Positions 46,186-56,207 of a DNA stretch of 64,000 bases are shown here, piece after piece. This DNA is from Bacteroidia bacterium. GTDB taxonomy: Bacteria > Bacteroidota > Bacteroidia > B-17B0 > Aurantibacillaceae. Below the pieces are notes generated by a model, which had not been told where the DNA came from, did not search any database, and saw nothing but the letters and a program-made list of their open reading frames with translations. The translations under genes and the position numbers were made by a program. Positions within the stretch are counted from its first letter, which is position 1. Each line of letters opens with the position of its first letter. The stretch is from NCBI GenBank assembly GCA_022841465.1, contig JALHRL010000019.1, positions 1-64,000 on the forward strand, written 5' to 3'.

Positions 46186-49100
46186 CTAGCGCATAATTAC
46201 CATTTTACCGAATTCTTTCACAAAATATTTTTCGGTTCCTGTTTCAGCCTTTTCAATAGATTCGTTATTTAATTTAATAATTACCTTATACAAATAAACT
46301 CCATTTGCCAGTTTATCACCAAAATCATCTTTTCCATTCCACGCGTAATCTGTAATATTTCTTCCAATTTTAATTGCACCTAATTCTTCTTTGGTAATTT
46401 CTTTTACAACTTTTCCGCTAATAGTCATAATTTGTATAGTGAATACTTCCGGTATTTCGCTGCCTGTTAATGTAAACACAAATCGTGTACTTGTACTAAA
46501 TGGGTTAGGGTAATTTAAAACATTGGTAACGCTTGGTTTGTTTTTAATTTCAAACTGAATCCTGTATTCTGTAAAACCCGATCGGTTTAAACTTCGGTCT
46601 TTCCCTTGAACAGTTAACTGATAAATACCGTCTTCTAACAAATCCGGATTAAAGTTTATTTTACAACTGTTATTAGGTAAACTAGCAGGCGTAAAAATTA
46701 AATCGTTTCCAAAGTATATGGGAACGGAATTAGACTGGTTTGGATATTTTAACGATACAGAAAACGCGGACGTATCATTTAATGCCAAAAATTTATTTTC
46801 GTCTTTTAAGGTTATTAAAATATTTGGTTTTGCAGAAACTAAATCTCCATTTAAAATTCTAACACCATCAAAGGTAACGTCCAACAAAGGATTGGTTATA
46901 TCTTTTTGAACACTAAAAGCTAAACGGCCAATGTTATTAAAACTTTCTTGTTCTTTTTGATACCGTGCGTTTGTTGGAGGATTAACATAAATCCATACAG
47001 CATTATTTCCTAAGTACTGATAGCTGTTTAATGCAATGGTATCGTAAATTATTTGTCCTGGTAAAAAATTATTCAGTTTTAATTTTTGAGGTAAAGGATG
47101 TATCACTTTATTGTTGTCTTCTAACCAATAAGTAACTACTAAACTATCGTTAAAAGGAATAGTGCCAATGTTTTCAATTGGAATTCTGAATTTGGCAACA
47201 TCACCCTCCATTAAACTATCGTTAATAGCAACAAAACCTTTTGCAGGATTTAAAGCACATTCAGGAACCTGATCATATAAAACTTGCCATTTTCTTAACT
47301 GTGGAGATGTACGATTAATGTTATCTTTCATAACAGCTACCAATTGTACAAAAGGGTAGGTAGAAGCGTTCACATAATTGTAAAGTGCTAAAACATCTGT
47401 ACTGTCTTTTACAAAGCTGGCAAGTGTATCTTTTTCTCCATTAGATTTTATACCAATTACTTTTAAAATAGTAGTATCGCCAGCTAAAGCATCGTAAGGT
47501 TTAAGTTGCCAATGCAAACTGTTCCATTTAAAGGCCGGACCAATTATTTCGGATGCAATGTATCCCGAATTCCATCTCGATTTAATGCTGTCGTTTAAAT
47601 AAATGATATCAGATTTTTTGCTTCCTATAACTTCATTTGCTTGTCCAATGTTCATTCCTTTTCTACCAAAAATTATATACGGAACAGTATCGGAAAGGGT
47701 TCTTATATTGGCAGACCCAAAACTTTCAAACGCAGTATATAAGGCGTTGTTGTAGGTAGTAATTTGAGCATAGCCCGGCGACAATGCTCCCATAGTATAT
47801 CCTAAAATGTAATTGTTAGGCGCAACTGCATTTAAAAATGCCTGCATGTCGTTTTTCCAATTACCAAATCCGCAATAATTATTTTGTCCAAAAGAATACA
47901 CCCAAAGCACCTGATTATCTACACACACACAATTACTGTATGTACCCGGCCCTAATAATGGCCAATTAACCGATACAACCGATTGAGGCTCGCCACTTAT
48001 AGAATCAAAAACAGCAAAATTCCAACCATCGGGTGAGCAACCCCAATTTGATAAACCATTTCCATTAAAGAAAAAATTAATTGCTACCGGAGAAATATTC
48101 GGATAAATTCCGTTACGAACACCAATTGAATGAACGTTATTAAAAAAATCAAATTTGCGTAATTGATTGTTATATTTTACAAATCGATACGTATTTCTTT
48201 TAAACTGATTAAAATGAGCCTGACTCCATCCCACTTTATTTCCTATTGTTTGAAATGAACTTTCGCGCCAAATAAAATTATCTGTACTTAAAACAGAATC
48301 TCTACTTACTCGCCAAAAATAAACAGTGCTATCGGCAAAAGGTAAATTAACATTCCACTCTAAAACACCACCTGAACTGGTAATATACGTTTGTTGTATT
48401 GGGTTTGTAAATTTATCGCAGGTATCTAACTGAAATTTATAAGTTGCTGTTTTTGCAAAGGGGTCTGTTGTACTGGCCTTTAAAGTGATGGTGTTTGATA
48501 AGGGAACAATAGCATATTTATAAGGAAAAACAGGAACAACATCCCCACCAGGAATAAATAAATCAACTGTGCCGTTTGTTGCGTTATTTGTTTTTAAAGT
48601 TTCAACAGTTTGATTAAACTGATCTAGTTTTACTTTAAATTTATTTAATCCAATTCCACGAACAAAATCAAGCGGAATATAAAATTTCAAACTGTCTTTG
48701 TAATAAGGGGCAACAACTTGCTTAAGAATGGTTATAGAATCGTTATTGGCAAAATATCTTTCTATTTGAACAAAAAACGAATCTTTTACTGCTTTGCCAA
48801 TATTTTTGTAATTAATAATAATACCAATTGAATCGGTATATTTTTTAGTATCAAAACGTACGTAGTTATTTTTTATTTCATAATCGGGCAATAGTCCGGC
48901 ATCTATTTTTATGGAAGGGTCTCCATGAAGCGTAATATCTAATGCTTGATAACGATTTAATCGTATCATGTTAATAGATGATAGATAGGTAGTTGATTTT
49001 ATAAAATCGCCCAATCCTTTACCATAATCATTAACTCCCATGTTTTGATAAAAGTTGGTTGAGTAGAAATGCAAAGCACTTGCATAACCTGAACCGGCAG

Positions 49101-51201
49101 AAGAAAGAAAACCAATTGCGCCTTTTTGATTTGCGAAAACAAATTTTTCACTAACCGACTGATTGTTGGTTGTGAAAATATCTCCTGAATAACACGAATT
49201 AGCAAAAACAAGCGGATACTTACCCGCATTATTGTAATCATCGGGGTTATCAATTGCCTGATCAAAACCTGCACTAGAACCATGTCCGAAAAAAGTAATT
49301 AAAGAAGCGCCGTTATTTATCGCATCTTTTATACTATCACTAATTACATATTGTATTGGAGCAGTGGTATTCTTAACAAATGTTTTTACTTCTGCACCCG
49401 TATATACTCCTTCAATAATTGCTTCATAACTTCCCATATAAGATGATAGAACATTTGTTAAACTGGGTGTATCTCCTCCCACAAAATGTAAAACTTTTTT
49501 CTTCCATTCTACTTGTCCTGTTGCTTCGTGTTGTTGTACTTTTGATAAATAAATATTTACATCGGCATCTTTTAAAGCAGCAATTCTACCAATGGGAATT
49601 TCAGGATAATTGGCAAGTGAGTTTGTAATTCCTGCGGTTAATAACACATCGCTGCTTGGAATACCGAACACCGGAATTAAATTTGCCGTTTGCGATGAAG
49701 CCGATAAATAATTATAATCAATTCCTTTTCCAATAAGTAATACATACTTTGGTGGAGTTGGTAATGAATCGTGTAAATATTTTATAAAGTTGCGTATTGC
49801 TTGTGGGTGTTTATTAATACCGTAACCAAAGTGATCGTACAATTCATTTATGTTTGCTGATATTACCTGATATGCTCCTCCTGCCGAAGATTCTCTATAC
49901 GTTTTATAATTATTAGCAGAAGCGGCTAAAGAAGGATGATAAATAATTACAAAAGGATTATTAGCGGTAGCAGAAATAAAATTTGAAAATGAACTACCGA
50001 TATTTAAATTATTTAATTGTGTAATGTTGGTGATGGATGATTCTGCACTTACAACTACTAATTTTTGCGAACCGGAATTTGGCACTACCATTCGTGCGTT
50101 TCCTCCTAATAAATAAACCGGTAACTTTTTACCATTACTAATATCGTAAGCTACTAAAGAATTGGTTGTTCCGGCATTGGGATTTGAAAGTACAAAGCTT
50201 TGTTTTGTTGTAAGGGTGTTATCATCAATAAATAACTTATTAAACAGTAGGCTACTTAAGGTAGGTGTTTTAGGATATTTAAATTGAAAATAATGCAATA
50301 GGGTTTGGTTGCTAAATGTTGAGAAAGATGGATTATTAACAGAAAGAACATTAAAATTGGTGTTATTTCCAATTTGTGAATTATTAATAACATAACTTCT
50401 TCTTATAGGCGAGTAACTGTAAAAGGCAGTATCGGTTAGTAATACTGAGTTGTTTAAATGATTGGTATATGAAATTTGCAATTGATGATCGATAAAATAA
50501 TATAAATTCATACTAAACCCCGATAGGTTTATGTTAAAGTAGCAGGGTAGGTTAGAGCCGGTAAAAACAGAATGATTCGCAAAAGGAGTAGTTAATTGTC
50601 CTCCTTTAGCAAACGCTAGTCCAAATCCTTCTGATTGTGTATATCGGGCATCACTGGCTTCGTTGTTATAATCAGGAACTTTGTTGTAATGGCTAACAGG
50701 ACTATAAACTAATTCATTGTAATAATAATCGGCTAAAGGATAATTTGCAATGGTGCTATCTGTTTCAATTTGGTATCTTTTATTTACTACAGAAGTATTT
50801 ACTGTAATATAAGCGTAAAGTGTATCATTAATTAAAGGCCTGTAGGGGTTAGGTAGATATTTTATTTCAGAATACATTAACGAATCGTATTCACGTCGGT
50901 AATGATTAGAATAAAACTCTATATAATCATTGGTGTTAAATTGATTGTCGGCTTCACCTTCAATAAACAAATATTGTTCTTCGCCTTTTACAAAAATTTG
51001 AAATTGTTTTGGATTAATGGTTAGTAAATTAAATTTTGTAGCAAGTGTAGCAGAATCTATTCTAAAAATGCCTTCTTTGGTAATAGGAAATTTAAAATAG
51101 GTTTTACTGTTGTCTATCCATTCGTTACAATATTTTTGACTTTTGCTTAAAAAACAAATAAAAATTAAGAATACGGAAAAGTATAATTTCCTGTTTAACA
51201 T
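46186..51201 (-). CDS. Long C25-family cysteine peptidase, PorU/PorU2-like T9SS sortase
   Basis: 1671 residues; signal peptide ends at KSQ (~22). The N-terminal region (FKFPITKEGIFRIDS, EYDSLMYSEIKY) resembles the PorU prodomain. A gingipain-type C25 domain (~415-770) has the catalytic His640 in FFGHGS and Cys670 in NSCYSG. Ig-like and CBM-like segments follow, and the end has NYPNPF and a FlgD-like TISGKVVKEI segment with KMVIMR. PorU cleaves T9SS C-terminal signals and attaches cargo to lipopolysaccharide. This long form is probably the PorU2-type paralogue, since true PorU is shorter. It starts 1 bp after the PorV/PorQ-like gene. Confidence 0.85.
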   Translation of the reverse strand: MLNRKLYFSVFLIFICFLSKSQKYCNEWIDNSKTYFKFPITKEGIFRIDSATLATKFNLLTINPKQFQIFVKGEEQYLFIEGEADNQFNTNDYIEFYSNHYRREYDSLMYSEIKYLPNPYRPLINDTLYAYITVNTSVVNKRYQIETDSTIANYPLADYYYNELVYSPVSHYNKVPDYNNEASDARYTQSEGFGLAFAKGGQLTTPFANHSVFTGSNLPCYFNINLSGFSMNLYYFIDHQLQISYTNHLNNSVLLTDTAFYSYSPIRRSYVINNSQIGNNTNFNVLSVNNPSFSTFSNQTLLHYFQFKYPKTPTLSSLLFNKLFIDDNTLTTKQSFVLSNPNAGTTNSLVAYDISNGKKLPVYLLGGNARMVVPNSGSQKLVVVSAESSITNITQLNNLNIGSSFSNFISATANNPFVIIYHPSLAASANNYKTYRESSAGGAYQVISANINELYDHFGYGINKHPQAIRNFIKYLHDSLPTPPKYVLLIGKGIDYNYLSASSQTANLIPVFGIPSSDVLLTAGITNSLANYPEIPIGRIAALKDADVNIYLSKVQQHEATGQVEWKKKVLHFVGGDTPSLTNVLSSYMGSYEAIIEGVYTGAEVKTFVKNTTAPIQYVISDSIKDAINNGASLITFFGHGSSAGFDQAIDNPDDYNNAGKYPLVFANSCYSGDIFTTNNQSVSEKFVFANQKGAIGFLSSAGSGYASALHFYSTNFYQNMGVNDYGKGLGDFIKSTTYLSSINMIRLNRYQALDITLHGDPSIKIDAGLLPDYEIKNNYVRFDTKKYTDSIGIIINYKNIGKAVKDSFFVQIERYFANNDSITILKQVVAPYYKDSLKFYIPLDFVRGIGLNKFKVKLDQFNQTVETLKTNNATNGTVDLFIPGGDVVPVFPYKYAIVPLSNTITLKASTTDPFAKTATYKFQLDTCDKFTNPIQQTYITSSGGVLEWNVNLPFADSTVYFWRVSRDSVLSTDNFIWRESSFQTIGNKVGWSQAHFNQFKRNTYRFVKYNNQLRKFDFFNNVHSIGVRNGIYPNISPVAINFFFNGNGLSNWGCSPDGWNFAVFDSISGEPQSVVSVNWPLLGPGTYSNCVCVDNQVLWVYSFGQNNYCGFGNWKNDMQAFLNAVAPNNYILGYTMGALSPGYAQITTYNNALYTAFESFGSANIRTLSDTVPYIIFGRKGMNIGQANEVIGSKKSDIIYLNDSIKSRWNSGYIASEIIGPAFKWNSLHWQLKPYDALAGDTTILKVIGIKSNGEKDTLASFVKDSTDVLALYNYVNASTYPFVQLVAVMKDNINRTSPQLRKWQVLYDQVPECALNPAKGFVAINDSLMEGDVAKFRIPIENIGTIPFNDSLVVTYWLEDNNKVIHPLPQKLKLNNFLPGQIIYDTIALNSYQYLGNNAVWIYVNPPTNARYQKEQESFNNIGRLAFSVQKDITNPLLDVTFDGVRILNGDLVSAKPNILITLKDENKFLALNDTSAFSVSLKYPNQSNSVPIYFGNDLIFTPASLPNNSCKINFNPDLLEDGIYQLTVQGKDRSLNRSGFTEYRIQFEIKNKPSVTNVLNYPNPFSTSTRFVFTLTGSEIPEVFTIQIMTISGKVVKEITKEELGAIKIGRNITDYAWNGKDDFGDKLANGVYLYKVIIKLNNESIEKAETGTEKYFVKEFGKMVIMR

Positions 51202-51202
51202 T

Positions 51203-52285
51203 TTACTTATCTGTTTTTTTATTAAAATCTATTTTAAGTGAGAAGATGTTTGAATAAAGTGCAATAGACCTATCACCAATATCCGTTAAAGCATAATCTA
51301 AAGAGAAAATTCTGTATTTGATACCTACACCAATATTTGGCTGAAAAGTGGTAACTTGATTTGTGCCGCTAACATCAAACTGCTTTTGTATGTTTCCCAT
51401 ACCAAATCTTAAAAACACAAAACCTTTGTAACCCACTTCTCCACCAAGCGCCGGTTCCATGCTCCACAATCCTGTTTTCACAACGGTATTTCTTTCCCCG
51501 TCAAAAGTGTTTATTAAATTTAATTCACCCAAAACAGAAATTCGTTCTTTCCAAAAGAAAAATGTTTTTGAAGAGCCTAATATTAACTTAGGCATGGTTA
51601 CCTCTAAAGAATTGGTAGGAATTTCGTTTCCGGTTTGTTGAAATACAGCCTTATAATTGTCGCTTAAATTATAACTCCAGGCATTAAATGTTCCTGTAAT
51701 ATCTCTTCCTAAAGCGCCAAATTGCCAGCCTTTATAATTGTATCTAATGCCGGCATCTAAACCAAAACCCCAGGCACCGCCAAACTCTCCTAACTTTCTT
51801 CTAATAATTTTAAAATTACCTCCAAGCTCAATTCCTTTTAATTGAGGAATTACTCTGGCGTAACTTAACAAAGCAGCAAAATCAACTGCATTAAATGTTT
51901 TAATTTTACTATAATCTACATTTCCGTTAGCATCCACTAAATCTAATGTGTTTGGAATATTATCTACGCCAAAACGCAACATGGTTAATCCTGCTACGCT
52001 ATTACTATCAATTCTTTTCGTTAGTCCAATAAAATCATATTTAGCAATTCCGGCAAAATATTCTGCATGCATTAATGCAACTTCTAAATCACTTTTTTGT
52101 TGAAGTAAACCTGCCGGGTTCCAATAACCTGCATAAGCCCCTGTAGTGGAAGCAACGCCGGTATTACCCATTCCTAAAGCGCGGGCGCCAACACCAATGT
52201 TTAAAAATTCGTTACTGTATTTTGCAATTTGTCCGTTTACAACGGCTGCCAAGAATATAGAAAGTGTTAAAAAATACGATTTCAT
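51203..52285 (-). CDS. PorV/PorQ family outer-membrane protein
   Basis: 360 residues. Signal peptide ends near VNGQ. The mature start FLNIGVGARALGMGNTGVAS and WNPAGLLQQKSDLE are hallmarks of the PorV/PorQ barrel family (FadL-like fold). PorV and PorQ hand T9SS cargo from the translocon to the PorU sortase. The gene order PorV-like then PorU-like with 1-bp spacing supports a dedicated pair. It cannot be decided by eye whether this is PorV, PorQ or a third paralogue. Confidence 0.87.
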   Translation of the reverse strand: MKSYFLTLSIFLAAVVNGQIAKYSNEFLNIGVGARALGMGNTGVASTTGAYAGYWNPAGLLQQKSDLEVALMHAEYFAGIAKYDFIGLTKRIDSNSVAGLTMLRFGVDNIPNTLDLVDANGNVDYSKIKTFNAVDFAALLSYARVIPQLKGIELGGNFKIIRRKLGEFGGAWGFGLDAGIRYNYKGWQFGALGRDITGTFNAWSYNLSDNYKAVFQQTGNEIPTNSLEVTMPKLILGSSKTFFFWKERISVLGELNLINTFDGERNTVVKTGLWSMEPALGGEVGYKGFVFLRFGMGNIQKQFDVSGTNQVTTFQPNIGVGIKYRIFSLDYALTDIGDRSIALYSNIFSLKIDFNKKTDK

Positions 52286-52327
52286 CTACAGTTTAAATTT
52301 AGGTGTTTTTGGCCAATTTTTATAGCT

Positions 52328-53272
52328 CTAAAACGCCTTTTTTTGAAATTTATTGCTGAATTTTTGTGCAAAGCTTATGCTAAACAAATTAGCCCCTAAA
52401 TAGTTCATATGAAAATGGTCAACAAACAACTCTTCTCTTTGATTATACTGGGCAGAGAGCATGTTCCAGTGTTCTATTTTGTTTGCTAAAGCTATGTTGT
52501 TTACTTGGTTTAACATGCTTTCCATGTTGCTAACATCTTTGTTTCCTCCTTTAAACATGGGAGAAGTAATAAGTGCAATTTGAATGGAATTTTCTTTACA
52601 TAATTGAATAATAGAATCTAAATAGGCTCTGTTTTTGGGTTCAAAATAATTAAAGTAAGGCTTTACCGTATCTTTTTCAATTAACTGAGAATGAAAATTA
52701 TCCTTTATGTATCCTTTAAAAAACAAGGCGTCGTATTTATCTTCTTTCCCCAGCCATCCATGAAGAGATGAGCTAATATTTTTAATGCCAATATATGGCC
52801 AAGAGTAATAAGGGTTATAATAAAAATGCTTAAACCTATTATCAATTTTATTGAATTCATTTAAGAGTGTTTTATTCTTTAAAAACGGAAAGTAATTATT
52901 AAACTCTTTAATATCATTTGTATTAAATTTCACAAAATGTAAATCGGTTTCATAAAACAAATACAAGGGAGCTTTGTGATTTGCCAAATAGGTTTTTAGG
53001 GCGGCAAATGCAAGTGGAGAATTTGCTCCGCTTAAGGATAAGTTAAAGGAATTAAAACCGGTAATGGAATCAAATACAAATGTATTGAAGTGCATGGCCA
53101 CGCGCGATGAGCCTAAAAAAACTACATCGTAAGGCGTATTTCCAAAAAAAGCCTCGGTGTACTTTGCGTAATAGCCTTTTTTATGCATTAACAATCCTTT
53201 ATAATGCAATGCTCGCAAAGCATACAAACTAAGCGTAATGAGTAGAAAATATATAACTGCCTTTTTTATCAA
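52328..53272 (-). CDS. Membrane-anchored SGNH/DltD-like O-acyl transfer protein
   Basis: 314 residues with one N-terminal membrane helix (4-22). SGNH hydrolase block I is FLGSSRVAMHF with Ser55 as the likely nucleophile; the last block has Asp285 and His288 in DHFHMNYLG. This is the pattern of DltD/AlgX/PatB-type proteins, which work with MBOAT acyltransferases to transfer acyl groups to cell-surface polymers. Its start overlaps the MBOAT stop by four bases, supporting a two-component system. Confidence 0.8.
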   Translation of the reverse strand: MIKKAVIYFLLITLSLYALRALHYKGLLMHKKGYYAKYTEAFFGNTPYDVVFLGSSRVAMHFNTFVFDSITGFNSFNLSLSGANSPLAFAALKTYLANHKAPLYLFYETDLHFVKFNTNDIKEFNNYFPFLKNKTLLNEFNKIDNRFKHFYYNPYYSWPYIGIKNISSSLHGWLGKEDKYDALFFKGYIKDNFHSQLIEKDTVKPYFNYFEPKNRAYLDSIIQLCKENSIQIALITSPMFKGGNKDVSNMESMLNQVNNIALANKIEHWNMLSAQYNQREELFVDHFHMNYLGANLFSISFAQKFSNKFQKKAF

Positions 53273-54681
53273 AACTGAAAATAGATGAAAGTGTTTGCAT
53301 TAAAATCACCAAAAATGAAAATAGTAATTACCAATAGAATATAAAATACAGGCTTTAATAGGTTGTAAAGAGCAGGACGCTTGTTTACCAAAGCATACTC
53401 TTCATTTAATTCTTTTAATACCAAAACAAGTATAAAAAACACCATTAGCAAATAGTAGAATCTATCTTGAAGCAGCGTATAATTACTTAAGCTAAAAGTA
53501 AACGTTTCCAAACTAAAAATACGATGGTAAATGAACCCTAAATCACTTATTGTATTTGCCCTAAAGGCTATTAAGGAAATGGTGTGAAATAGTAATAAAT
53601 AGATATGTCCGATTAATTTGGGAGGTACAATGTTTGGAAATTTTTTTCTTAAAACGCTTTCTAAAATAAAAACCAAGCCATGCATTGCGCCCCAAACTAA
53701 AAAAGTGGAATTAGCGCCGTGCCATAAACCACTTATAACAAACACTAAAAAAATATTTAAGAGCCAACGGCTATAATTTACACGATTGCCTCCTAAGCCA
53801 ATGTATAAATAGTCTCTAAACCAAGTAGTAATACTAATATGATTTCTTTGCCAAAATTCGGTTAATGTTTTAGATAATAATGGTCTGCGCCAATTTAAAC
53901 TAAAATTAATATTAAATAATTTGGCAATTCCGGTTGCAATATCGCTGTAACCACTAAAATCGCAATAAACTTGTATAACAAATAAGAAACCGGCAAGTAA
54001 TAATTCAAATCCATGGAAATTATTTACATTATCAAAAACGGGACTCACTACACTGTTTAAATTATCGGCAATTACCAATTTTTTAAAATACCCCCAGGTA
54101 ACTAATTGCGCAAAGGCTCCCCAATTAATGTTTTTAAAATAACTGATACTTTTTAATTGAGGCATTAAATTGTTGTAACGTACAATGGGGCCGGCTACCA
54201 TATGCGGAAAAAAGGAAACAAAAAGTAAAAAGTCAGAAAGTGTATCGTTTGGTTTGTATTTTCCTCTGTAAACATCAACTACATAACTAATAGATTGAAA
54301 AGTGTAAAAAGATAAGCCGGCAGGTATAATTAAATTTTCCATTAATGCGTAATTGGCATTGTTTACATTATTTAAAATGGCAACCCCGCTATTAAACAAA
54401 AATGCAGAATATTTAAAAACAACTAATACACCCAAATTAGAAATTAAGCTTAAGGCTAAAAAACTTTTTTTATAGTGCGTTTTACTTTCAATTTGCTTGG
54501 CACACCAAAAATCAAAAACAGAAGTACCAATTAGTAACAACAAAAAATAGGGGTTGTACGAAAAATAAAAATAATAAGACGCTAGTAATAACCAATAATT
54601 TCTGAAACGGATAGGTGATAACCAATAGCCTATAAAAACTATAGGTAAAAACAGGGTAAATATTAACGAATTAAACAGCAC
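53269..54681 (-). CDS. MBOAT-family membrane O-acyltransferase (AlgI/DltB-like)
   Basis: 470 residues with about 11 membrane helices. The catalytic His321 lies in SGLWHGANSTFLVWG; the conserved NRHWRR-like LNWRRPLLSKTLTEFWQRNH and YSDIATG segments are present. AlgI/DltB members carry acyl groups across the inner membrane for transfer to polysaccharide or teichoic acid. The paired SGNH gene follows immediately. The acceptor here is unknown. Confidence 0.92.
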   Translation of the reverse strand: MLFNSLIFTLFLPIVFIGYWLSPIRFRNYWLLLASYYFYFSYNPYFLLLLIGTSVFDFWCAKQIESKTHYKKSFLALSLISNLGVLVVFKYSAFLFNSGVAILNNVNNANYALMENLIIPAGLSFYTFQSISYVVDVYRGKYKPNDTLSDFLLFVSFFPHMVAGPIVRYNNLMPQLKSISYFKNINWGAFAQLVTWGYFKKLVIADNLNSVVSPVFDNVNNFHGFELLLAGFLFVIQVYCDFSGYSDIATGIAKLFNINFSLNWRRPLLSKTLTEFWQRNHISITTWFRDYLYIGLGGNRVNYSRWLLNIFLVFVISGLWHGANSTFLVWGAMHGLVFILESVLRKKFPNIVPPKLIGHIYLLLFHTISLIAFRANTISDLGFIYHRIFSLETFTFSLSNYTLLQDRFYYLLMVFFILVLVLKELNEEYALVNKRPALYNLLKPVFYILLVITIFIFGDFNANTFIYFQF

Positions 54682-55789
54682 TTTCTTTAATACTTGATTT
54701 TACTCCGTGAATAACATAAGCAGAGCCTAAAAACAGAAATGGGAAAATTACAGCAGTATAACGCTCTGTCCATTCATTAAAAAAAAGCACAACTACGAAG
54801 GCGTGTGCAATTATAATTGCTTGAATGAATAATAAAACATTAAAATGAAACATTCGTTTTTGTTTAAATGAATTCCACAATGCCATTATATTTAGAACAA
54901 AAAAAACAATATGCGCTCCGTTTATAATGTTATGGAAATTAGAGTAATAAGGGCGCGTTAAAGTAAAAAATGAAATAAACTTTAAGCCTATTAATTTAAA
55001 CACTTCCAATATCCCTTCTTTTTCAAAAAGAAGTTGATAAGTGTTAAATAATGTAAGTTCAGCTGGTGTATAAACCGTATTGTTTGTTGGGAAACCGCAT
55101 ATAACCGACCCCGTTAAAATTACATTTGCCACACCGCTAAAATGTAGTTTCACAAAAAAGAAAACGAATAAAAACAAGGCCAAGCCTATTGTTGTATAAT
55201 AGAACAACGTTTTTTTAATACCCCATTTACCTGTACAATGAAGTTTATAAGTTACAAATGCTAATAAAATGATTATACCGGTGGGTTTGCTTAATAGTAA
55301 TAGGAGAGCATAAATAAAAATACGCTTCAATGGAATGGTGCCAACAAATAACTCGTAAGCAAAAAGCAAATAAATGGCTATAAAAAAACTTTCAGAATAT
55401 AAACTCAGGTTCCAGGTAAGTAAAAGCGGACAAAACAACATAAAAAACAACCACCAATTGGCGAGCTTATTATTAAACTTTAGATGAAGTAAAGAATAAA
55501 ACTTATAATAAGCCGCAAGTGAAACAGAATGGGTAATTAGTATAATTGCTGCTTTAGAAAATCCTAATTTAATAAATACCGCTAAATAAAAAATATACGA
55601 AAGATTAAGCAATTGAAATTGAAAAATTTCTTTTGCCTTTTCGCTAAACAATTGTTGGGCTTCCGAAAAAAACTTTTCGCCTTCACCCGTAAAATTAAAT
55701 CCTTTGGTAAATATTAAAAAAGTAAACAGTACAAGATGTAAAGAGTAGAGTAGAAGTACCGTTTTATTTTTTTGTAAAAAAGAATTCAT
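54671..55789 (-). CDS. Polytopic membrane protein, GT-C glycosyltransferase-like
   Basis: 372 residues with about nine hydrophobic segments. The layout (long first loop GFNFTGEGEKFFSEAQ, then paired helices, ending with FNEWTERYTAVIFPFLFLG) resembles lipid-linked-sugar transferases of the GT-C type, but no DxD catalytic motif is clear, so the call is tentative. Its end overlaps the MBOAT start by 11 bp, so it belongs to the acylation operon. Confidence 0.65.
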   Translation of the reverse strand: MNSFLQKNKTVLLLYSLHLVLFTFLIFTKGFNFTGEGEKFFSEAQQLFSEKAKEIFQFQLLNLSYIFYLAVFIKLGFSKAAIILITHSVSLAAYYKFYSLLHLKFNNKLANWWLFFMLFCPLLLTWNLSLYSESFFIAIYLLFAYELFVGTIPLKRIFIYALLLLLSKPTGIIILLAFVTYKLHCTGKWGIKKTLFYYTTIGLALFLFVFFFVKLHFSGVANVILTGSVICGFPTNNTVYTPAELTLFNTYQLLFEKEGILEVFKLIGLKFISFFTLTRPYYSNFHNIINGAHIVFFVLNIMALWNSFKQKRMFHFNVLLFIQAIIIAHAFVVVLFFNEWTERYTAVIFPFLFLGSAYVIHGVKSSIKESAV

Positions 55790-55796
55790 TGATAGT

Positions 55797-56207
55797 TTAA
55801 TCCATCTTTTTGCGAAGTTTCTTTTTTTCGCTAATAAGTATTTTGGTTGATTTCTTTTTTAATTTACTGGCTTTTGTTGGTGCGGTTGCCAGTCTTTTTT
55901 TAGGTTTTACAAATAGTTTTTTAAGTAATTTACCAAAGCGCTCGGTAACCTCTTTCTTATTTTGTAATTGTGTTCTGAATTTATCTCCCGCTAATACAAT
56001 AGCACCTTCTTTGGTAAGATGCTTGTAGTTTTTTTTTATCGTCCACTTTTCCTCATCATTTAATATACGTGAAAGATGTATGTTAAATTCTAAATGAACC
56101 TTTGTTTCAACCTTGTTTACATTTTGGCCGCCTTTACCGCCTGAATGTGAGGTAGTATATACAACTTCTTGCTTTAGAATTTGAGCTATTTTACTATCTG
56201 TTAACAA
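55797..56207 (-). CDS. arfB: Alternative ribosome-rescue factor ArfB (ICT1-like)
   Basis: 136 residues. The release-factor motif GGQ is at residues 26-28 in HSGGKGGQNVNKVETKVHLEF, and the basic C-terminal tail (KKRLATAPTKASKLKKKS) would enter the empty mRNA channel of stalled ribosomes. ArfB releases the nascent chain without a stop codon. It begins a - strand run and is divergent from the amidase gene. The 7-bp gap to the next gene may still allow co-transcription. Confidence 0.93.
   Translation of the reverse strand: MLTDSKIAQILKQEVVYTTSHSGGKGGQNVNKVETKVHLEFNIHLSRILNDEEKWTIKKNYKHLTKEGAIVLAGDKFRTQLQNKKEVTERFGKLLKKLFVKPKKRLATAPTKASKLKKKSTKILISEKKKLRKKMD

Follow-up and report, generated by a model that had tools for sequence, protein, structure and literature searches.

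PorU is the enzyme for which LPS transfer is described among the components of the T9SS, PorZ is an A-LPS delivery protein, and gldN/porN is a ring gene of the same system. The Wbp/Vim proteins of Porphyromonas gingivalis are cytoplasmic nucleotide-sugar enzymes. The linking sugars themselves vary among T9SS species and their synthesis is partly unknown, according to the accessible part of PMC11969387. Among MBOAT-dependent acylation systems, PatA and DltX bear the acyl group on the tyrosine of an FXYXXF motif, and a shuttle motif fused to the MBOAT is associated with acyl-CoA donors, as described in the available sections of PMC12148441.

Here we analyze a stretch of 64,000 nucleotides (the window), contig C19 of a 3.77 Mb genome assembled in 125 contigs, in which an MBOAT acyltransferase and an SGNH partner are encoded immediately ahead of PorV2 and PorU2, a second sortase-like pair. 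The recurrence of this gene row among uncultured Bacteroidia suggests that the acyltransferase pair decorates cell-surface material to which proteins are anchored. A literature search, confined to titles and displayed abstracts and with most subscription journals outside its scope, returned no paper describing a link between an MBOAT-SGNH pair and PorU2.

Gene order at the locus

Six genes form a single row on the minus strand, listed here from 5' to 3' along that strand together with the one sizable gap.

55797-56207, minus strand: ArfB ribosome-rescue hydrolase, the row's first gene (NF006718, 109 bits, cut-off 100)
54671-55789, minus strand: polytopic membrane protein, possibly GT-C-like; 11 bp overlap with the MBOAT gene
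53269-54681, minus strand: MBOAT O-acyltransferase (PF03062, 62.2 bits, cut-off 27) with His321 and FIYFQF (Tyr467)
52328-53272, minus strand: SGNH acyltransferase partner, 314 aa, assigned from conserved residues and predicted fold; one N-terminal membrane helix
52286-52327, minus strand: 42 bp gap between the SGNH and PorV2 genes
51203-52285, minus strand: PorV2, a PorV/PorQ-family outer-membrane barrel (NF052325, 454.3 bits, cut-off 325)
46186-51201, minus strand: PorU2, a C25 sortase-like peptidase of 1671 aa (NF052324, 663.5 bits, cut-off 450) with His640 and Cys670

A previous sequence-only reading had placed five of these genes on one strand with at most 42 bp between neighbors, and both the coordinates and the spacing are confirmed: the intergenic distances from ArfB to PorU2 are, in order, 7, -11, -4, 42 and 1 bp. 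ArfB, which lies within the same interval but was left unnamed in that reading, is probably an unrelated passenger. The genes flanking the row on both sides are on the plus strand. The MBOAT and SGNH genes do overlap by 4 bp as proposed, but the overlap reads TTGA rather than ATGA, with TTG as the SGNH start codon; TTGA occurs at this junction in 32 of 36 loci. Overlaps of 4 bp are found between MBOAT and SGNH in 32/36 loci and between PorV2 and PorU2 in 28/35.

A site scan marked no terminator-like sites in the 42 bp gap between SGNH and PorV2, in agreement with the initial expectation that no terminator separates the two gene groups. The scan as a whole yielded no excess of promoter-like sites (50 vs 56.9 in shuffles) or terminator-like sites (8 vs 7.6), and it does not cover Bacteroidota promoters. 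A promoter or terminator splitting the row was dropped as an explanation on the strength of the gap, the promoter scan being uninformative for this phylum. No RNA element from Rfam matched at the gathering score between 45000 and 58000.

The GT-C-like label given to the polytopic membrane protein is weakly supported. Neither Pfam nor NCBIfam returned a match to the protein encoded at 54671-55789, a profile search of PDB sequences returned none, and its predicted model is poor (pLDDT 64, built on three sequences), with no significant fold match. The homologue at locus L087 scores 17.4 bits against Glyco_transf_22 (Alg9-like), below the cut-off of 23.8. Odd genes appear in or beside the row in single lineages (L068, 9321-10301; L081, 12789-13664); in one, a gene for a transglutaminase-like protein precedes the GT-C-like gene, and in another, ArfB and MBOAT are separated by a fructosamine kinase gene.

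PorV2 and PorU2 form a second sortase-like pair

The barrel and the peptidase were initially described as PorV/PorQ-like and PorU-like. Their membership of the PorV family and of the C25 peptidases stands, but curated NCBIfam cut-offs rule out canonical PorU/PorV identity and assign both to paralogous families, PorV2 and PorU2. The barrel scores 42.5 bits against the canonical PorV model NF033710 (cut-off 250), falls far under the canonical PorQ cut-off of NCBIfam, and narrowly exceeds that of Pfam PorV (27.5 bits, cut-off 27). The peptidase reaches 223.4 bits against the canonical PorU model NF033707 (cut-off 420) and 212 bits against Pfam Peptidase_C25 (cut-off 23). His640 and Cys670 of the C25 domain are retained in all 114 aligned PorU2 sequences, 87 of them distinct, in an alignment restricted to sequences longer than 1250 aa. 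The C-terminal sorting domain of PorU2 itself scores slightly below cut-off (19.8 vs 23, 25.2 vs 27). A PDB sequence search yielded no match for PorU2 and one weak PorV match for PorV2. In the accessible part of PMC10994853, the string 'PorV2' looks like PorV followed by reference number 23.

The canonical proteins are encoded elsewhere in the same genome: PorU (1252 bits) and PorV (460 bits) adjoin each other on contig C3, PorQ (321 bits) lies on C4, and PorZ (536 bits, cut-off 260) lies on C1. The pair in the window is thus a second sortase-like pair. The C25 proteins of this genome number three, the third, besides PorU and PorU2, being a shorter protein on C9 (G000:C9:96354-97388; L135, 8661-10934). 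This protein is 757 aa long, with a type A sorting domain that scores over cut-off; no PorV-family gene adjoins it within the stretch examined.

The MBOAT-SGNH pair

In sequence the pair looks like a functional acyltransferase, with a catalytic histidine, a shuttle tyrosine and a Ser/Asp/His set. His321 and Tyr467 of the MBOAT are invariant in 16/16 sequences. The C-terminal FIYFQF fits the FXYXXF acyl-shuttle motif, which is present in all 69 MBOAT ORFs of the examined loci (41 distinct). In the SGNH protein, GSSR (Ser55/Ser56), Asp285 and His288 are invariant in 34/34 sequences. Pfam returned no match to this protein, and its structure model is confident (pLDDT 93). The top Foldseek rows are DltD chains, with E values from 2.2e-5 and TM-scores of 0.36-0.48. 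VIA-align gives Z scores of up to 17.1 over 168 residues against SGNH enzymes. TesA ranks first there, and the leading rows are of TesA type or belong to other GDSL enzymes; PatB has a Z of 14.2, and the 50 entries listed include no DltD. These matches of a predicted model indicate the fold rather than the substrate.

A profile search of the PDB with the MBOAT matched DltB only, but the score against the DltB model (115.8 bits) is below the cut-off of 375. No DltA over cut-off was found in the genome, the best candidate scoring 54.5 bits against a cut-off of 559.85, and D-alanylation of the Dlt type was dropped on that ground. Given the lack of a DltA over cut-off and the association of MBOAT-fused shuttle motifs with acyl-CoA donors, the pair is likely, by analogy, to catalyze acetylation or some other simple acylation.

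Conservation of the gene block

PorV2 is over cut-off in 87/87 genomes of the family (f1), the window's own counted. Sequence of up to 20 kb surrounding PorV2 was taken from 86 relatives, which give 87 loci because one genome is split, and from 40 genomes that belong to eight other families. With the window included there are 88 family loci: 38 have SGNH as the gene immediately ahead of PorV2, 9 have a GT-C-like gene but no pair, and the other 41, several of them truncated at contig ends, have neither. A genome-wide search with a threshold of 220 bits or more identified an SGNH orthologue in 46 of the 87 family genomes, beside PorV2 in 38 and elsewhere in 8. This count leaves out matches of 172-188 bits (G043, G045) and weaker ones, as well as an SGNH gene in G063 (L204), approximately 4.6 kb upstream of PorV2, which was found with a local profile at 78 bits.

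Approached from the SGNH side, a scan of named genomes found 36 loci, 34 with PorV2 next. Thirty-one belong to the same family genomes, and the additional five (L234-L237, L240) come from outside the family and keep the order MBOAT-SGNH-PorV2-PorU2. At one of these (L235, 5820-7463), two tandem pssA-like genes adjoin the block. The PorV2 tree places 85 of 86 family rows in one starred clade that excludes the five outside loci; the four-gene order is therefore likely older than the family. In ten block-bearing loci, hand-chosen with one per lineage, the genes common to 10/10 are exactly MBOAT, SGNH, PorV2 and PorU2, and a pssA-like gene is shared by 7/10. The neighborhood is thus conserved in related genomes, as had been anticipated from the window alone.

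The association is far from obligate. To explain where the pair is present, the PorV2 tree needs 17 changes, 11 of which starred branches force, vs 36.2 in shuffles; the pair is therefore clustered yet often lost. PorU2 is over cut-off in 77/87 family genomes vs 46/87 for the SGNH orthologue, which excludes strict co-occurrence; many genomes retain PorU2 but have no pair, so the pair cannot be essential to it. No MBOAT or SGNH was labelled in the 40 PorV2 loci of the eight other families. Three of these (f3, f9, f10) have PorV2-PorU2 without the pair in 17/17 loci, and in f5 and f7 PorU2 is over cut-off in 0/13 (f5 0/12). At two loci with PorV2-PorU2 and no pair (L117, 10458-13178; L120, 6579-9296), the gene immediately upstream encodes a protein of some 905 aa; that of L117, the only one scanned, carries SprB repeats and a CHU_C sorting domain.

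Genus g4 is represented by three genomes, and in all of them (3/3) SGNH lies away from PorV2 and 42-60 bp upstream of gldN/porN (TIGR03523, 193-206 bits, cut-off 85.9; L190, 7850-9685; L192, 8395-10203; L193, 9225-11006). This SGNH keeps its catalytic motifs and has no MBOAT directly adjoining. A PorV-family barrel gene also lies close upstream in 2/3 of these genomes, and in the third the contig ends. As the three genomes represent one lineage, the linkage is probably a single event; it is nonetheless the best separate sign of a tie to the T9SS. With g4 included, 41 of 46 SGNH orthologues lie directly upstream of a T9SS gene. The remaining five genomes carry displaced pairs away from PorV2, beside ArfB in G019, G021 and G022 and beside pssA in G050 and G075, and a scan of further neighbors in four of these five recognized no T9SS gene.

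A proposed optional acylation module and its alternatives

We favor the reading that the pair is an optional accessory that tailors an envelope glycan which the PorV2/PorU2 branch encounters or uses, and that it is encoded with this branch in one operon, and give it a probability of about one half. An optional, T9SS-associated glycan O-acylation module is the best description of the data, and it may act on the PorU2 acceptor. The reading draws on the catalytic residues of all three enzymes, which are invariant in aligned relatives; on the position of SGNH directly upstream of PorV2 in 38/46 family genomes and 34/36 loci found from its own side; on the four genes shared by every chosen lineage and the five loci that keep their order beyond the family; on the 4 bp overlaps; on the block's two upstream contexts, ArfB and divergent pssA; on the g4 linkage to gldN; and on the presence of PorU, PorV, PorQ and PorZ in the window's genome. 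Counting against a tight link are the wider distribution of PorU2 than of SGNH, the 5/46 pairs away from PorV2, the 40 other-family loci without the pair, the pssA synteny of f5 considered below, the 17 changes on the tree, and the restriction of the gldN linkage to one lineage whose SGNH has no directly adjoining MBOAT. The original proposal that acylation modifies the glycan receiving PorU cargo is accordingly upheld in its gene linkage and revised in its enzyme, which is PorU2 and not PorU, and for which the pair is dispensable.

In the mechanism that we propose, the GT-C-like, MBOAT, SGNH, PorV2 and PorU2 genes would be transcribed together. The MBOAT would accept an acyl group, probably acetyl from acetyl-CoA judging from its homologues, and His321 would promote its loading onto Tyr467 of FIYFQF. 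The membrane-anchored SGNH protein would then take the acyl group onto its active serine and donate it to a hydroxyl group on the presumed target, a glycan in the periplasm or at the surface. PorV2 may act as the shuttle for a set of T9SS cargo, and PorU2 may carry out the processing and anchoring of that set.

The chief rival, which we regard as a genuine though doubtful prospect, holds that the pair has an ordinary envelope polymer as its O-acylation substrate and owes its place beside PorV2 to descent, with no functional tie to cargo anchoring; MBOAT-SGNH would have been inserted between an old pssA gene and PorV2 and later inherited or lost. A divergent pssA-like gene does lie close upstream of PorV2 or the block in 11/12 loci of f5 (L158-L167, L169), in the single locus of f7 (1/1; L175) and in 19/87 loci of f1 (L065, L099 and 17 others), and no MBOAT is labelled at the f5 and f7 loci in question. 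Because f5 has pssA without MBOAT and without PorU2 over cut-off, the pssA-PorV2 neighborhood is partly old synteny, and the conserved order may in part be inherited around pssA or ArfB. The displaced pairs that stay beside one or the other of these genes, and the ability of PorU2 to manage without the pair, also fit such a history. So does the slot upstream of PorV2, which a POT transporter fills in three family loci; with ArfB directly upstream of PorV2 in a further 10, the notion that this slot always holds a glycan enzyme was rejected. Descent alone, however, sits less easily with the two contexts in which the block is found: the gene ahead of it is ArfB in 19 family loci and a divergent pssA in 12, so that the co-directional genes stayed together as their context differed. 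The block's four genes are moreover the only ones common to all ten chosen lineages, and the SGNH gene of g4 has come to lie directly upstream of gldN. A second table of 13 loci was picked for bearing pssA, and the pssA shared there is so by construction.

Two further alternatives change the chemistry of the acceptor. PorU2 might join cargo to an amine lipid, for example phosphatidylethanolamine, derived from the pssA that lies nearby in many relatives, with the pair tuning that lipid or a glycolipid. The recurrence of pssA near PorV2 in f1, f5 and f7 and in 7/10 of the chosen block loci points this way, as does a gene that follows PorV2 in the two f5 loci examined (L158, 8111-9247; L161, 7911-9254) and whose product combines an Lnb N-terminal domain with an Lnb membrane domain. 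We nevertheless consider amine-lipid anchoring improbable: pssA is a household gene, PorU2 over cut-off is missing from f5 and f7, none of the 27 loci of the other six families has a pssA-like gene near PorV2, no decarboxylase is encoded next to pssA in the two loci examined, one from g10 and one from f5, the window's genome carries pssA on a different contig and not by the block, and PorZ is present in this genome. A precedent for a sortase working with pssA has been proposed for archaeosortase in the portion of PMC7157517 available. Alternatively, the pair might act in the manner of DltB/DltD and add an amino acid to a sugar, which would supply an amine nucleophile for the sortase. The accessible parts of PMC7468200 and PMC11969387 describe linking sugars that bear Ser, Gly or Ala, and DltB is the only PDB profile match of the MBOAT and DltD the top Foldseek match of the SGNH protein, albeit with low TM-scores. 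Against aminoacylation stand the lack of a DltA over cut-off, the DltB score far below cut-off, the fusion of the shuttle motif to the MBOAT, an arrangement associated with acyl-CoA donors (PMC12148441, available sections), and the attachment of the amino acid on the known linking sugar as an N-linked amide and not an ester (PMC11969387, accessible part). This makes aminoacylation very improbable indeed.

A bolder reading, which we judge unlikely, treats PorV2/PorU2 as a dedicated anchoring branch of its own, the second in the T9SS. Its acceptor would be distinct from the known A-LPS linking sugar and would be modified by interchangeable neighbors, namely MBOAT-SGNH, the GT-C-like protein and, in many relatives, phosphatidylserine synthase, so that lineages would swap the anchor by replacing the genes in the slot ahead of PorV2. 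Conserved linkage of an acyltransferase pair with a little-studied sortase pair indicates where the chemistry of the acceptor might be varied, and it makes the role of PorU2/PorV2 directly testable.

Comparison with known systems

The MBOAT-SGNH pair resembles PatA/PatB, AlgI/AlgX and DltB/DltD in the catalytic histidine and C-terminal FXYXXF of its MBOAT, in its membrane-anchored SGNH protein with Ser/Asp/His, and in its overlapping genes; unlike those systems, it stands in one gene row with PorV2/PorU2. The scanned partners of three other MBOATs in the genome are of ALGX or GDSL type and 422-435 aa long, whereas the SGNH protein of the window has 314 aa. Like the T9SS attachment complex PorU/PorV/PorQ/PorZ, the locus combines a C25 sortase-like peptidase, its His and Cys kept, with a PorV-family barrel, but the two are the paralogues PorU2 and PorV2 in a genome that also holds the canonical set elsewhere.

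Archaeosortase ArtA, which is non-homologous to PorU2, offers a parallel with its PssA/PssD in that a sorting-system gene lies near pssA in some relatives of the window; here, however, pssA is outside the row, and f5 lacks PorU2 over cut-off. The Wbp/Vim linking-sugar pathway of P. gingivalis resembles the proposed module as glycan chemistry that serves a T9SS sortase, and differs in that it consists of cytoplasmic nucleotide-sugar enzymes and not of an MBOAT-SGNH pair.
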